A stretch of DNA of 44,907 nucleotides from Flavobacteriales bacterium (GTDB lineage: Bacteria > Bacteroidota > Bacteroidia > CAIKAF01). The translations under genes and the position numbers were made by a program. The notes under the pieces were generated by a model, which had not been told where the DNA came from, made no database searches, and worked only from the letters and a program-made list of their open reading frames with translations. Position 1 is the first letter of the stretch. Every line of letters starts with the position of its first letter. The stretch lies in NCBI GenBank assembly GCA_025055635.1, contig JANWWQ010000012.1, forward strand, positions 1 through 44,907, read 5' to 3'. Positions 5,309 through 11,838 of this stretch are shown here, one piece after another.

Positions 5309-7945
5309 ATGAATTCCAAGCAAGTGAGGCAGACATTTCTGGATTTTTTCCGCAATAAAGGGCACATGGTGGTCCCTTCTGCTCCGGTAGTTCTCAAGAA
5401 CGATCCCACATTAATGTTCACCAACGCCGGCATGAACCAATTTAAGGATATCTTTTTAGGACTTGCCCGCCCGCAGAGCCCCCGCGTAGCCGATACCCAA
5501 AAATGCCTCCGTGTTTCTGGTAAGCACAACGATCTGGAGGACGTGGGCCACGACACGTACCACCATACCTTCTTTGAAATGCTGGGCAACTGGAGCTTTG
5601 GTGATTATTTCAAGAAGGAGGCCATTGAATGGGCCTGGGAACTGCTGACAAGAATCTATAAAATAAATCCCGACCGTTTGTATGCTACCTATTTCGGGGG
5701 TGATGATGGGGAAGGCCTGGAGGCCGATCAGGAAGCACGGACACATTGGCTGCAATTCTTACCGGAAAACCGTGTGCTCGCCGGAGGCAAGAAGGACAAT
5801 TTCTGGGAAATGGGCGATACGGGCCCTTGCGGACCGTGCACAGAGATCCATATTGATATCCGCCCGGATTCCGAAAGAAAAGAGGTTCTTGGGGAACAGC
5901 TTGTGAATACTGGGCATCCGCAGGTGATTGAGCTCTGGAATTTGGTGTTCATACAGTACAACCGTACTGCCACGGGGGCTTTACACGTCTTACCAGAAAG
6001 ACATGTAGACACAGGGATGGGCCTGGAGCGTCTGTGTATGGTATTGCAAGGAAAAAAGAGCAATTACGATACCGATCTTTTCTCCGGATACATTTTCCGG
6101 TTAGAGGAGCTTTCCGGCCATCTGTATGGGCGGGATGCTCGTAAGGATGTGGCATTTCGGGCCATTGCCGACCATGTGCGGGCCGTGGGGGCTTGTATCG
6201 CCGATGGCCAATTGCCCTCCAATACAGGCGCTGGGTATGTGGTAAGGCGCATCTTGCGTCGGGCTGTGCGCTATGGATTTTCGCACCTGGACTTCAAAGA
6301 GCCCTTTCTTTACAAGCTTGTGGAGGTGTTAGCCGATAACCTCGGCGAAGCTTTTCCAGAATTGCGGGCTCAGCAAGCCTTTGTGGAAAAGATCCTTTTT
6401 GATGAGGAAGAAGCCTTTTTCCGCACCTTGGATCGCGGTATGGGTCGCCTCACGGAAGCCCTGCGTCAGGCCCGTTCCAAGGTCCTGGACGGCGCCACTG
6501 TATTTGAGCTATACGACACCTTTGGCTTTCCTCCGGACCTTACCCAACTGATTGCCCGCGAGGAAGGCTTTGACACGGATATGGCTGGTTTTGAGGTGGC
6601 CTTGGAAGCCCAGAGGACCCGATCGCGCCAGGCCACTGACGTGAAACAGGAGGACTGGGTGGAGGTGCGTCCTTATGAAAAGCCCCGCTTTGTAGGATAC
6701 GATCAATTGCACACTTCCACTGAAATCTTACGCTACCGTCGCGTGGAAGTGAACAAAAAGCCCCAGTTTCAGATCGTGTTAAATACCACACCGTTTTATG
6801 CCGAGGGAGGGGGCCAAGTGGGCGATACTGGAGTTCTTTTGGCCGAAAAAGAGAAAGTTAATATTCTGGATACCATAAAAGAAAACGACCTGATCATTCA
6901 CATAGCGGACCGCCTGCCCTCCGACCCGACTGTACAGTTTGAGGCCGTAGTGGATGCGGAGAGGCGTCAGCGTACAGCGTGCAACCATAGTGCCACCCAC
7001 CTCCTGCATGCGGCACTCAGGCAAGTATTGGGGCCTCATGTAGAGCAAAGGGGATCCCTGGTGCACCCCTCTTACCTCCGCTTTGATTTCTCTCATCCCC
7101 ATAAGCTGACTCAGGAAGAAATTCAGCGCATTGAAGATTTGGTCAATGAAAAAATTCGGGCCAACCTCCCGCGCCAAGAATTTCGCGATATGGCCCTAGA
7201 CGAAGCTTTGAAAGAAGGTGCTATCGCCCTTTTTGGGGAAAAATATGGCGAAAAGGTTCGCATGATTCGCTTTGGCGATAACTTTTCTACCGAGCTGTGT
7301 GGAGGCACTCATGTCGCTCATACTGGGGAAATTGGGCTTTTTAAGATCATTTCTGAGAGTGCTATTGCGGCTGGGGTGCGGCGTATAGAGGCGCTCACAG
7401 GTATGGCAGCTTTGGAATATGTCCGGGGGTTGGAACAGCAACTGCGGGAAATAAAAAATGTGCTCAAAGGGGCTGATGATCCGGTGAAACAAGTCATGCA
7501 ACTCGCCGCTAAGGTGCAGGCTTTGGAAAAAAAATTACAACAGCAACGGGAAAAAGAATTACAACAGCTTAAAACGTCTTTGCAAAATCAAATCATACCT
7601 GGCTCCTCATGCTCTTATGCGGTATGTCGCTGCGATGGCTTCACAGCCGATGAGCTACGCTCCGTGGCATTTATGATGAAAAACTCCCTTCAGCGTTCAG
7701 CTATTCTCATGGCTGGTATTACGGAAAATAAACCAATAGTGGCCTTGTGGCTATCCGATGACCTGGTGCAGGAGGGCATGAACGCCTCCCATCTGGTGCG
7801 CACTTGGGCCAGACATATCCAAGGAGGGGGAGGTGGACAGCCGTTTTTTGCAACCGCCGGCGGGAAAAAAACTGAGGGTATTGAAGCCCTTTTGGATGAA
7901 GCCCGGAAGTTTTTTGCTGGGTGGACTCCTTCACCTGGAAAGTAA
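5309..7945 (+). CDS. alaS: Alanine--tRNA ligase
   Basis: This 878-residue cytoplasmic enzyme charges tRNA-Ala. The class II catalytic core is N-terminal (KHNDLEDVG, TFFEMLGNWSFGDY near residue 90, GYVVRRILRRAVRYG). The editing domain carries the zinc-binding pair of motifs HSATHLLH near 558 and CGGTH near 664. A coiled coil follows, then the C-Ala domain with its glycine-rich GGGGGQP. All parts are present at normal length. I use ATG 5309 rather than an earlier GTG-like start because MNSKQVRQTFLDFF is the typical N-terminus. The next gene begins one base after the stop codon, so alaS appears to be the first gene of a six-gene transcription unit. Confidence 0.97.
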   Translation: MNSKQVRQTFLDFFRNKGHMVVPSAPVVLKNDPTLMFTNAGMNQFKDIFLGLARPQSPRVADTQKCLRVSGKHNDLEDVGHDTYHHTFFEMLGNWSFGDYFKKEAIEWAWELLTRIYKINPDRLYATYFGGDDGEGLEADQEARTHWLQFLPENRVLAGGKKDNFWEMGDTGPCGPCTEIHIDIRPDSERKEVLGEQLVNTGHPQVIELWNLVFIQYNRTATGALHVLPERHVDTGMGLERLCMVLQGKKSNYDTDLFSGYIFRLEELSGHLYGRDARKDVAFRAIADHVRAVGACIADGQLPSNTGAGYVVRRILRRAVRYGFSHLDFKEPFLYKLVEVLADNLGEAFPELRAQQAFVEKILFDEEEAFFRTLDRGMGRLTEALRQARSKVLDGATVFELYDTFGFPPDLTQLIAREEGFDTDMAGFEVALEAQRTRSRQATDVKQEDWVEVRPYEKPRFVGYDQLHTSTEILRYRRVEVNKKPQFQIVLNTTPFYAEGGGQVGDTGVLLAEKEKVNILDTIKENDLIIHIADRLPSDPTVQFEAVVDAERRQRTACNHSATHLLHAALRQVLGPHVEQRGSLVHPSYLRFDFSHPHKLTQEEIQRIEDLVNEKIRANLPRQEFRDMALDEALKEGAIALFGEKYGEKVRMIRFGDNFSTELCGGTHVAHTGEIGLFKIISESAIAAGVRRIEALTGMAALEYVRGLEQQLREIKNVLKGADDPVKQVMQLAAKVQALEKKLQQQREKELQQLKTSLQNQIIPGSSCSYAVCRCDGFTADELRSVAFMMKNSLQRSAILMAGITENKPIVALWLSDDLVQEGMNASHLVRTWARHIQGGGGGQPFFATAGGKKTEGIEALLDEARKFFAGWTPSPGK

Positions 7946-7946
7946 A

Positions 7947-8558
7947 ATGCTCTACATCCATCATTGGAGCCTCCTCAGAAATGGCCAATTATGGAGTGAC
8001 GGACGATTATTGGCCGCTGTACCAGCGGATCTATCTGCATCCATGGAGGGGCTCCATGATATTTACAGAAAGGCGGCATTTAATTACCCAAAATTTTTTA
8101 AGGCGGATGGATTTTGTAAGGCGGGACTTTTGACAGTGTTGCCCTGGTGGAAAACCTTACGTGCACACCCCCGGGCTATTCAAGGGTGTATGTTATTGTT
8201 TACTGACAGTGGGTGCCACTTGGCAGACGAAGAACATATCAAAGGCATGCAGAACGGTAGCCCTTCACCGGCTGTCTTTGTGTATACACTTCCAAATATA
8301 CTTTTGGGAGAATGGAGCATATTGTTAGGTTGGAAGGGTTTCGGTAGTTGCTTTTTAATGCCCTCTTGTGACGTACATCAAATCCAGAAAATTATTGAGC
8401 TACACCGGACTGATCAAAAGGAAACACCGCTATTGTGGGGCTGGTGCTCCGCCTTCCCAGATCGCATAGCCGCGGCCGCTTTTTTTTGTGACCAAGAAGC
8501 CACAGCACAGCCCTTAAGTTGTGAAAACATACAGCAAATACTGAACTTTACAGCTTGA
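7947..8558 (+). CDS. Short ketosynthase-like protein of aryl-polyene/flexirubin type clusters
   Basis: The 203-residue product matches, from memory of the family, the stand-alone beta-ketoacyl-synthase N-terminal-like proteins (Pfam Ketoacyl-synt_2 type) found in flexirubin and aryl-polyene gene clusters. Characteristic stretches are FFKADGFCKAG near residues 50-60 and AVFVYTLPNILLGE followed by GWKGFGSCF. It has no TACSS catalytic motif and no C-terminal thiolase half, so it is unlikely to condense acyl groups itself; its role in such clusters is not well defined. ATG 7947 (MLYIHHWSLL) begins one base after the alaS stop; a longer frame inside alaS is rejected. The ACP gene follows after 4 bases. 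Confidence 0.8.
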   Translation: MLYIHHWSLLRNGQLWSDGRLLAAVPADLSASMEGLHDIYRKAAFNYPKFFKADGFCKAGLLTVLPWWKTLRAHPRAIQGCMLLFTDSGCHLADEEHIKGMQNGSPSPAVFVYTLPNILLGEWSILLGWKGFGSCFLMPSCDVHQIQKIIELHRTDQKETPLLWGWCSAFPDRIAAAAFFCDQEATAQPLSCENIQQILNFTA

Positions 8559-8562
8559 CCTT

Positions 8563-8826
8563 ATGGAAAAACATCAACTTTGCCATCAACTTAAAACGCA
8601 AATCATTCAAAGACTCAATCTGGAAGGCATGACACCAGACGACATCGGTGACGAGCAGCCTTTATTCGCTGAAGGATTGGGTCTGGATTCTATTGATGCC
8701 CTTGAGTTGATTGTACTTATGGAACAGGAGTACGGCATTAAAATTGAAAATCCCCAGGAAGGACGAGCCATTTTTTCCACGGTGTCCTCCATGGCTGATT
8801 ATATCCTTCGGCAGAAGCAGTCATGA
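8563..8826 (+). CDS. Acyl carrier protein dedicated to the ketosynthase set
   Basis: An acidic protein of 87 residues with the phosphopantetheine attachment motif GLDSIDALEL, in which Ser43 should carry the prosthetic arm. It presents acyl chains to the two ketosynthases encoded next. It is not the general fatty-acid AcpP by context: it lacks fabF/fabD/fabG neighbours and sits between a short KS-like gene and a ketosynthase gene. Its stop overlaps the next start in an ATGA (8823-8826), indicating translational coupling. Confidence 0.92.
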   Translation: MEKHQLCHQLKTQIIQRLNLEGMTPDDIGDEQPLFAEGLGLDSIDALELIVLMEQEYGIKIENPQEGRAIFSTVSSMADYILRQKQS

Positions 8827-10025
8827 AGGCCGGGGAGGTGTGGGTTACCGGTATGGGCATCGTAACGGCCCTTGGACTCACCTTACAAGAACATTTGGAA
8901 AGGTTAAAAGCCGGCCAATCGGGTATTGGCCCCCCGCGCATTTTGCGCACCCGCCATACTCTTCCTGTGGGAGAGGTGCCCCACAACGATGCAGCCTTAA
9001 CCCGCATGCTGGGCTCTGAAGGTCCTTTATTTTTTGTGCGCACTGCTCTTCTGGGCACCTGGGCGGCACGGCAGGCTCTGCAACAGGCAGGTATTCATCT
9101 TCAGGACGTAGATCCCGCCACAACAGGATTCATATCTTCCACCACTGTGGGGGGAATGACCGCTACTGAGGAATATTTTTACCGGTACGAAAAAGAGGAG
9201 GCTTTACACGTATGGATTGATAAGCTGGATTGCGGAGACTCCACGCGTGACATAGCCTGTTATTTAGGGCACCAAGGTTTTTCCACCACGCTGAGCACGG
9301 CTTGCTCTTCATCAGCCAATGCGATCATGCTGGGGGCCCGTCTTATCAAAGCCGGCCGCTTAAAAAGAGTTCTTTGTGGAGGGGCCGATGCTCTTTGTCG
9401 CTTTACGCTAAATGGCTTTCATTCTCTCATGCTCACGGAAAAGGTGCCCTGCCGTCCTTTTGACAAACATCGTCAGGGGTTGAATTTGGGGGAAGGAGCC
9501 GCCTTCTTAGTTTTAGAGGATAGCCGAGAAGCAGAACGCCGAGGTGCTCAGCCTCTGGCCCGGGTAGCCGGATATGCTAACACTAACGACGCCTTTCACC
9601 AGACAGCCTCTTCACCGGAGGGAGAAGCCGCTTATGAGGCTATGAAGCAGGCCCTTGCTATGGCCGGTATCCCCCCGGAAAAAGTTTCCTACGTGAACAC
9701 GCACGGCACCGGTACCCCTAATAATGATGAGAGTGAAGGCCGGGCCCTGTGTCGCCTGTTTGGTCAGAATTTGCCCCCTTTTAGCAGCACCAAGCCTTTT
9801 ACCGGTCATACATTAGCAGCCGCAGGAGCCGTGGAAGCGGTTTTTTCTATATTGGCCATCCAGGAAGGCCAATTATGGCCTAACTTGAATTTCACCGAAC
9901 CGATGGATGACCCTTCCATTGTGCCAGTGCTGAAAACCACTTCTGCTCCCGTGCGGACTGTGGTAAGCAATTCCTTCGGATTTGGTGGCAACAACACCTC
10001 CTTGGTGATCACCGCCGTCTCATGA
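8823..10025 (+). CDS. Beta-ketoacyl-ACP synthase (KAS II-like), complete catalytic triad
   Basis: This 400-residue thiolase-fold enzyme should condense an acyl primer with malonyl-ACP. The full Cys-His-His triad is visible: Cys161 in STACSSSA, His294 in NTHGTGTPNNDE and His329 in KPFTGHTLAAAG. The N-terminus (VWVTGMGIVTALG) and C-terminal NSFGFGGNN are typical. Its closest look is to the ketosynthases of aryl-polyene clusters rather than housekeeping FabF, judging from gene order. It overlaps the ACP gene and the following chain-length-factor-like gene by ATGA at both ends, so the three proteins are likely made in step. Confidence 0.93.
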   Translation: MKAGEVWVTGMGIVTALGLTLQEHLERLKAGQSGIGPPRILRTRHTLPVGEVPHNDAALTRMLGSEGPLFFVRTALLGTWAARQALQQAGIHLQDVDPATTGFISSTTVGGMTATEEYFYRYEKEEALHVWIDKLDCGDSTRDIACYLGHQGFSTTLSTACSSSANAIMLGARLIKAGRLKRVLCGGADALCRFTLNGFHSLMLTEKVPCRPFDKHRQGLNLGEGAAFLVLEDSREAERRGAQPLARVAGYANTNDAFHQTASSPEGEAAYEAMKQALAMAGIPPEKVSYVNTHGTGTPNNDESEGRALCRLFGQNLPPFSSTKPFTGHTLAAAGAVEAVFSILAIQEGQLWPNLNFTEPMDDPSIVPVLKTTSAPVRTVVSNSFGFGGNNTSLVITAVS

Positions 10026-11077
10026 AAGCTTTGTTCATCCTGGGAAAAGCTTCCATATCGCCGCAGGGCTTTGGAGCTTCCGCCCCTTTGCCCCCCACGC
10101 CGTACACCTATGAAGAAAGGGCCTTGGTGGCTGTGGAACCTGATTACAAAGAAGAAATGAGTCCTCTGGATCTGCGCCGGATGAATAAAAGCATGAAAAT
10201 GGGCGTCTGGTGTGCCAAAAAAGCTCTCGGAGAAGCCGGTATTCCGCAGCCTGATGCCATCATCACGGCCACCGGCTTGGGTTGCCTCCAAGATACCGTG
10301 AATTTCCTTAAAACAATAATAGACAGTGACGAAACCGCCCAAGCCCCTACCTACTTCATATCTTCCACTCATAATAGTGTGAGTGGCCAGTTGGCCCTTC
10401 GATTAAAAAGTACTCTATACAATTACACCTATTGCCACAAGTCCCTGTCCCTTTATTCTGCGTTGCTGGATGCCAGTCTCCACGCCGAAGAGAATAGCCG
10501 ATCGGTGGTGTTAGTAGGCGCGCTGGACGAACACGTGGACGTAAAATTTCGGCATTACGATCTTAGAGGTTGGTGGCGCAAAGAACCTGTCCACAATCTT
10601 CGCTTGTACCAAGAGTCCTTGCCTGGGACGCTCAGCGGAGAGGGGTGTCACTATTTCGTATTAAGTGCTTCCCCTTCGGAGGGTGTGGCTATCACCCGCA
10701 TGGCGGCTGTGGAAGAAGCCAATGAATCCCAAATTGAGCGCCTCACGATGGAAATGTTAGAGGGACAGTCGGAAAAGGAAACGCTGGTTCTTTTGGGCTT
10801 GTCAGGTGACGAACCATCAGATGGTGTGTACCATAAACTTCGCCGCACTCTGCTCTCATCCTTTGTTGTGGGCGCTTTTCGCCACTTGTGTGGAGTATAT
10901 CACACCAGTGATGGCTTTGCACTCTATTTAGCCGATCAGGTTTTACGCGACGCTTCGGCACCCGCATATCTATTTCCTGAACCCCTTCAGTCTTTGCCCA
11001 TCGTTCCTCGCAGTGTGGTAATCTATACGCATTTACGCGGTTCTGGACACGTGTGGTATCGTTTGGAAAAATTATGA
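10022..11077 (+). CDS. Ketosynthase-like partner (chain-length-factor-like)
   Basis: A 351-residue ketosynthase-fold protein without the TACSS and THGTGT motifs of an active KAS. In the region where the nucleophile would lie it has YCHKS (residues 137-141), followed by LSLYSALLDA, which matches the helix after the active-site Cys in the gene before it. The N-terminal PLDLRRMNKSMKM and ISSTHNSVSGQLAL are typical of ketosynthase-like partners in flexirubin/aryl-polyene clusters. I infer a heterodimer with the preceding KAS, the partner shaping product length. Cys138 could still be reactive; alignment by eye is ambiguous. Both ends overlap neighbours by ATGA. Confidence 0.8.
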   Translation: MKALFILGKASISPQGFGASAPLPPTPYTYEERALVAVEPDYKEEMSPLDLRRMNKSMKMGVWCAKKALGEAGIPQPDAIITATGLGCLQDTVNFLKTIIDSDETAQAPTYFISSTHNSVSGQLALRLKSTLYNYTYCHKSLSLYSALLDASLHAEENSRSVVLVGALDEHVDVKFRHYDLRGWWRKEPVHNLRLYQESLPGTLSGEGCHYFVLSASPSEGVAITRMAAVEEANESQIERLTMEMLEGQSEKETLVLLGLSGDEPSDGVYHKLRRTLLSSFVVGAFRHLCGVYHTSDGFALYLADQVLRDASAPAYLFPEPLQSLPIVPRSVVIYTHLRGSGHVWYRLEKL

Positions 11078-11838
11078 TAAAAGTAGCCCTCTTGGGGGGC
11101 TTTTTTTTATTTATAGCAGGGCTCTGCTTAAGCATTTTAGGATTAATTCCGCTCATTATTGCCTTTATACCTGTATTAATTATCATAAGTCTGTTGATTT
11201 ACGGGTCCGCATTTATTTGCTCCCAGATGTTTGTGCCTGCTGTGTGCCAACTGCCTCGCCCAGAGGGAACCCTGCTTACTTTTGATGATGGTCCGCATCC
11301 TATTTATACACCTAAGATCCTTGCCATCCTCCGGGAAAAGAATGTGAAAGCTGTTTTTTTTCTGATCGGCAGGCATGCGAAGCAACATCCTGAATTGGTA
11401 AAACAAATCCAACAGGAAGGCCATACCATAGGAAACCATAGTATGATTCACCGCTGGTACTACGGTTTTTTACCGGCTTGGTGCCTCACGCAAGATGTTT
11501 TACAATTTAATGCTTTAATAAGTGAAATAACTGGGAAGGAACCCACCTTATTTCGCCCCCCTTATGGAGTTACAAATCCTCCCCTGGCAAAAGCCCTTAA
11601 ATGCTTTCCTCGTCTCCATGTGGTGGGCTGGACATTACGAACCCGCGACACGGTGATCCGCAATCCCCAACGCATTGTTCAGGTCATAAGAAAACGTGCT
11701 AAACCTGGAAATATCATCCTGCTGCACGATCGCTGTGCCGCCACAACAGAAGCATTGCCAAAAGTTATTGATTATCTCAGGGCTGATGCCTCCCTAAGGC
11801 CTGTAGCAGCAGATTTTTTTATTTTAGAGAAACCATAA
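11074..11838 (+). CDS. Membrane-anchored polysaccharide deacetylase (NodB domain)
   Basis: The 254-residue product has two hydrophobic segments in its first 55 residues, then a NodB domain. All five carbohydrate-esterase-4 motifs are recognisable: TFDDGP, NHSMIH (metal His pair), RPPYG, WTLRTRDT and ILLHD. By family it removes N- or O-acetyl groups from a glycan or similar substrate outside the inner membrane. I chose ATG 11074 because it makes an ATGA overlap with the preceding gene, matching the other junctions in this operon; an earlier frame start at 11053 lies inside that gene. Similar deacetylases accompany some Bacteroidota flexirubin-like loci, so the substrate may be a lipid-linked product rather than a polysaccharide. 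Confidence 0.9.
   Translation: MIKVALLGGFFLFIAGLCLSILGLIPLIIAFIPVLIIISLLIYGSAFICSQMFVPAVCQLPRPEGTLLTFDDGPHPIYTPKILAILREKNVKAVFFLIGRHAKQHPELVKQIQQEGHTIGNHSMIHRWYYGFLPAWCLTQDVLQFNALISEITGKEPTLFRPPYGVTNPPLAKALKCFPRLHVVGWTLRTRDTVIRNPQRIVQVIRKRAKPGNIILLHDRCAATTEALPKVIDYLRADASLRPVAADFFILEKP

Follow-up and report, generated by a model that had tools for sequence, protein, structure and literature searches.

Flexirubin is an orange pigment of the outer membrane. Its biosynthesis genes, flx and dar, have been described in Chitinophaga pinensis and in Flavobacterium johnsoniae. Known producers group them in a single large cluster, which spans 37 kb in F. johnsoniae, or in two, as C. pinensis does with flx and dar; the C. 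pinensis flx cluster encodes the ketosynthases FlxC, I, L, N and O, with the deacetylase FlxP following L/N/O (PMC3992019). Related aryl-polyene (APE) clusters have been described in E. coli and in Xenorhabdus/Acinetobacter; these build on a 4-hydroxybenzoate start unit and combine a dedicated acyl carrier protein (ACP) with an active ketosynthase, ApeO, and a dead partner, ApeC (structures 6QSP and 7F28; PMC8253772, PMC8358021). The half-size partners in these structures (7f28_A/C and 6qsp_B) are one-domain chain-length factors that pair with ApeO (PMC8358021).

The locus analyzed here resembles both systems and departs from each. As in the flx/dar clusters, its core is orthologous and in the same order, and the genome shares FlxA, FlxB, LolA2 and DarH with them at equivalog level, DarB and DarG at subfamily level, and most other steps; the pathway genes, however, lie at about ten places instead of in one or two clusters. 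With the APE clusters it has in common the active ketosynthase with a dead partner, the dedicated ACP, and relatives of ApeI, LolA and the exporter. In contrast to APE, the start unit is expected to derive from tyrosine through FlxA, there are two dead partners, one full-length and one half-size, and a NodB deacetylase, not listed among APE genes, and dialkylresorcinol genes are present. We consider it very probable that the five genes are the flxL-M-N-O-P portion of a flexirubin (aryl-polyene plus dialkylresorcinol) pathway, the genes of which lie apart from one another in this genome. The pathway itself is ordinary and its arrangement unusual, with the flexirubin core behind alaS and the cluster dispersed in the lineage.

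A five-gene block behind alaS

The window, meaning the whole stretch of 44,907 nucleotides that was analyzed, carries the following genes at the locus.

5309 to 7945, forward strand: alaS, for alanyl-tRNA synthetase, which presumably heads the operon (TIGR00344, 905 bits, cut-off 457)
7947 to 8558, forward strand: short ketosynthase-like protein of 203 aa, FlxL-type, a one-domain partner of ApeC-like size (alignment with flx-cluster relatives, AlphaFold model, fusions to ketosynthases in five relatives)
8563 to 8826, forward strand: acyl carrier protein, FlxM-type by position (PF00550; NF006617, 71.7 bits, cut-off 70)
8823 to 10025, forward strand: active ketosynthase (KAS), FlxN/ApeO-type (PF00109 and PF02801, catalytic residues, tree placement)
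10022 to 11077, forward strand: KAS-like partner without catalytic residues, FlxO-type (PF13723, ketosynthase fold, fusions)
11074 to 11838, forward strand: NodB-family polysaccharide deacetylase, FlxP-type, with a hydrophobic N-terminal membrane anchor (PF01522, 110 bits)

All five open reading frames of the block are present and intact, and the coordinates confirm the tight packing described in the initial annotation. A single base lies between the alaS stop codon (7943-7945) and the start of the short ketosynthase-like gene at 7947, four bases separate the latter from the ACP gene, and the KAS, KAS-like and deacetylase genes each begin inside the preceding stop through an ATGA overlap (8823, 10022 and 11074). 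On the 3′ side of the deacetylase gene, an AT-rich gap of 397 bases (28% GC) is followed by a gene on the opposite strand, so that the putative operon would stop behind the deacetylase.

Identity of the five proteins

The short ketosynthase-like protein gave no match in Pfam or NCBIfam, and a sequence search of the PDB returned nothing useful; its identity is therefore based on alignment with its relatives, with which it has the motif SPAxFVYTLPNI in common, and on its fold. The predicted model (pLDDT 86.5) finds 7f28_A/C and 6qsp_B (ApeC) as its top PDB matches, at a modest TM of 0.52-0.55, and since these are the half-size ketosynthase partners, the label "KS-like" first given to this protein holds. 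The ACP is 86% identical to that of the sister species.

The KAS keeps the catalytic residues Cys161, His294, Lys324 and His329, which are invariant across nine relatives. Its nearest NCBIfam score, to PRK09185, falls under the cut-off of that model; it is 52% identical to the KAS of flx clusters and groups with KAS of the same family with a support of 1.0 (FastTree), and besides many FabF structures its structure matches include 6qsp_A (ApeO) and 7f28_B. In the KAS-like protein the catalytic pattern is absent at the aligned positions, as it is in every relative, while the model has a ketosynthase fold with matches that include 1tqy and 6kxd; this protein is probably the chain-length factor of the KAS. 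The block thus holds an active ketosynthase with Cys-His-His beside a catalytically dead partner, the combination that marks the ApeO-ApeC type. The deacetylase retains the motifs TFDDGP and HSMIH, and its hydropathy exceeds 2 across the first ~45 residues.

The block in other genomes

Named genomes were scanned with the KAS-like alignment, which yielded 583 confirmed stretches; 80 loci from among these, mostly from Bacteroidota, were kept and their gene order read with HMMs built in this analysis. The uninterrupted order short ketosynthase, ACP, KAS, KAS-like, deacetylase occurs at 36 of the 80 loci, and at some of the others the block is cut by contig ends or its genes are fused. KAS adjoins KAS-like at 72 loci and KAS-like adjoins the deacetylase at 52, and at least two further flexirubin gene families lie within the fetched flank at 76, which bears out the resemblance to the flexirubin/aryl-polyene core that had been proposed from the window. 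By order and family, rather than by alignment to the C. pinensis proteins themselves, the block appears to correspond to flxL-M-N-O-P of that species. Because the five-gene order recurs across Bacteroidota and the junction with alaS is kept in a sister species, the block is more than a chance assembly.

A variant layout was seen in Mucilaginibacter-type clusters (L103, L107, L109, L112, L130, L136, L140 and others), where the ACP gene is not between those of the short ketosynthase and KAS but farther on and on the other strand, and where no deacetylase was seen behind KAS-like. The same cluster occurs at L114, L171 and L172, in records titled Alphaproteobacteria, Neomarinimicrobiota and Chlorobi, which reflects either mislabelled bins or transfer.

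Most of the remaining pathway genes lie scattered over the genome

Ketoreductase, dehydratase, ammonia lyase, ligase and exporter genes are all absent from the window itself, and the initial annotation had left two options, a pathway split over the genome or a separate minimal polyketide/lipid system. In the latter, host fatty-acid enzymes would reduce and dehydrate the chain and the membrane deacetylase would finish the product. Searches for the missing enzymes recovered most of them at scattered sites in the present genome, G000, which is a 2.32 Mb draft assembly of 136 contigs with 94% completeness.

FlxA, a tyrosine ammonia-lyase, passes its model (NF053541, 701.6 bits, cut-off 700) and lies on contig C87 together with a flavin monooxygenase that is 53% identical to its flx-cluster relatives, and the ketoreductase FlxB is found on C136 (NF053542, 346.9 bits, cut-off 340). 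A ketosynthase-ACP-acyltransferase set on C64 shows 66, 57 and 39% identity to flx clusters, respectively, and an FlxI-type ketosynthase with intact catalytic residues is located on C103. LolA2 on C41 reaches its model (NF053544, 126.2 bits, cut-off 125) at about 30% identity to flx relatives. Contig C92 contributes two sites: near 38 kb, an ApeI-like dehydratase (~31%) with a glycosyltransferase (40-42% identical to those of flx clusters), and near 72-76 kb, DarB, an ApeP-like protein, DarG, DarH and an ABC ATPase. DarH is well above its cut-off (NF053550, 433.5 bits against 300), whereas DarB passes the StlD/DarB family model (467.5/450) without reaching the strict DarB model (456.7/550), and DarG likewise passes DarG_fam (136.8/70) without reaching the flexirubin DarG model (135.6/170). 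The likely FlxY, a 4-coumarate CoA ligase on C70, has FlxY as its best family with 434 bits against a cut-off of 520, the next family scoring 157. A full-length RND exporter, 27-28% identical to flx exporters, stands near the end of contig C46; this gene (L086, 13577-17386) encodes a single protein of 1269 aa in which an RND transporter is fused to acyltransferase and methyltransferase-like parts. DarA found no match in this 94% complete draft, and has matches in the sister species G001 and in G002 and G006. The missing DarA, the FlxY, DarB and DarG scores short of their stricter cut-offs, and the low identities of the exporter, LolA2 and ApeI count against the flexirubin assignment.

Two candidates were rejected in the course of this search. 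A short-chain dehydrogenase on C87, considered as the missing ketoreductase, has no relatives in flx clusters, and FlxB on C136 takes that place; a second ammonia-lyase on C54 is hutH-like and scores 274 bits to NF053541. At L029 (1676-4674), this histidine ammonia-lyase gene overlaps by 4 bases a preceding gene that reads like hisS, giving this genome a second junction between a tRNA synthetase gene and one of metabolism.

In total, pathway genes were located at about ten sites spread over nine contigs. At most loci the neighbors on either side are unrelated, and owing to the draft state, loci on separate contigs may be nearer to each other than they look. The first of the two options thus stands, most of the rest being found at about nine further places. 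A separate minimal system is very unlikely: it would account for the gene content of the window and for G006, where the block is likewise solitary, but the block genes are orthologous to and collinear with contiguous flx cores, equivalogs of FlxA, FlxB, LolA2 and DarH exist elsewhere in the same genome, and among the 16 genomes of the order that were covered the short ketosynthase gene is found in 4, so the order includes genomes without the block, which speaks against a general lipid pathway. A full cluster elsewhere with its own ketosynthase pair had been set beforehand as the refuting observation; it was not found, the whole draft having one KAS-like and one short-ketosynthase match, both single-copy.

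Sister species and intermediate relatives

In the sister species G001, alaS and the block are on two contigs joined by an exact end overlap of 141 bases. The alaS stop is 9 bases from the first start codon of the block, and AlaS is 70% identical to that of the present genome. Upstream of alaS and beyond the block the two species have different genes, indicating that the unit has been retained through changes in its surroundings. G001 also keeps at least five other sites: FlxB by the same MerR-like gene, FlxA by the same trmB-like neighbor, LolA2 behind lpxH, ApeI with the glycosyltransferase, and DarB-DarH. Within the genus the scattered layout is an old one. Relatives can be ordered by their degree of dispersal: other families mostly have a single cluster, G002 and G006 take an intermediate position with several loci each, and G000 and G001 have about ten. 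In G006 the block is solitary, with lnt-like and mutS2-like genes on its two sides as read from translations. Such a series lends itself to studying why clusters break up and become coupled to housekeeping operons, and what follows from it.

Comparison of the sister species also bears on the idea that the block is no more than the decaying remnant of a flexirubin cluster that has been lost. The short ketosynthase-like protein and the deacetylase are fast-evolving, with 44-46% identity between the two species, and DarA is missing from the draft, as would be expected of a relic. Against this, the five reading frames are intact and keep their catalytic residues, and in all five genes identity at codon positions 1 and 2 (55-93%) is far above that at position 3 (31-46%), a pattern of purifying selection by which no gene of the block looks like a relic. 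The remaining pathway genes are intact too, several passing curated models, and decay is in our judgement highly improbable. In G001 the N-terminal membrane part of the deacetylase (L032, 480-600; contig C51) is without one obvious frame, through either a sequencing error or a real change.

Ketosynthase pairing and a proposed pathway

Fused genes occur in ten relatives: KAS with KAS-like in five, the FlxI-type ketosynthase with the short ketosynthase in three, and the short ketosynthase with KAS in two. These fusions suggest two pairs of ketosynthase and partner, FlxN-FlxO and FlxI-FlxL, the five KAS::KAS-like fusions supporting a predicted heterodimer of KAS and KAS-like. The putative FlxI-FlxL pair is split in this genome between C103 and the window. 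The fusions amount to a testable statement on how ketosynthases and dead partners pair in flexirubin synthesis.

By homology to the flx and ape enzymes, FlxA would convert tyrosine to 4-coumarate, which FlxY would activate. The chain would then be elongated on the ACP with malonyl units by FlxN (the KAS)/FlxO and the FlxI-type ketosynthase/FlxL, each unit being turned into a double bond by FlxB and the ApeI- and ApeP-like dehydratases. DarB and the other dar genes would make the resorcinol part, and the membrane deacetylase, LolA2, the glycosyltransferase and the RND-acyltransferase-methyltransferase fusion would process and export the product, which is predicted from gene content to be a flexirubin.

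Junctions with housekeeping genes

The initial annotation had called the joining of the block to a tRNA synthetase gene unexpected. None of the 80 named loci contains alaS, and it is not beside the block in the other relatives examined apart from the sister species, but the junction is not a unique oddity: on C103 the FlxI-type ketosynthase starts inside the ruvB stop (ATGA), and LolA2 overlaps lpxH by one base in the present genome and by 4 bases in G001. FlxB follows a dihydroorotase gene at 47 bases. Among open papers, we found none that reports an alaS gene followed by flx genes or a flexirubin pathway scattered over a genome; biosynthetic cluster searches, which rely on genes lying together, would recover this pathway in fragments only.

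The layout suggests that the block is co-transcribed with alaS, and alaS-linked expression, as first proposed, is plausible given that the junction is kept in the sister species. An own promoter inside alaS or the short ketosynthase gene, which would leave the block functionally untied from alaS, seems rather unlikely. One match to the Bacteroidota-type promoter TTG-N17-24-TAnnTTTG does lie in the short ketosynthase gene (8278-8306, N18), within chance expectation at ~0.5 for the region, but the final 450 bases of alaS contain none, the gap between alaS and the block measures only 1 base here and 9 in the sister species, and the unit is kept there with both of its flanks altered. A sigma-70 promoter scan gave no excess over shuffled sequences, a model unsuited to Bacteroidota. 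Returning to transcription from alaS, pieces of the cluster may survive where housekeeping operons express them. As a tentative generalization, for which we would claim somewhat less than even chances, the pigment cluster of this lineage has merged with the housekeeping part of the genome, where its pieces are kept as translationally coupled tails of essential or core operons (alaS, ruvB and lpxH) that are expressed with growth instead of under cluster regulation, are selected, and are stable between species.

At window positions 11085-11101, within the first codons of the deacetylase gene, a GC-rich hairpin is followed by eight T (-14.3 kcal/mol, z -2.6). It could be an attenuator of the last gene, or a by-product of the hydrophobic coding sequence.
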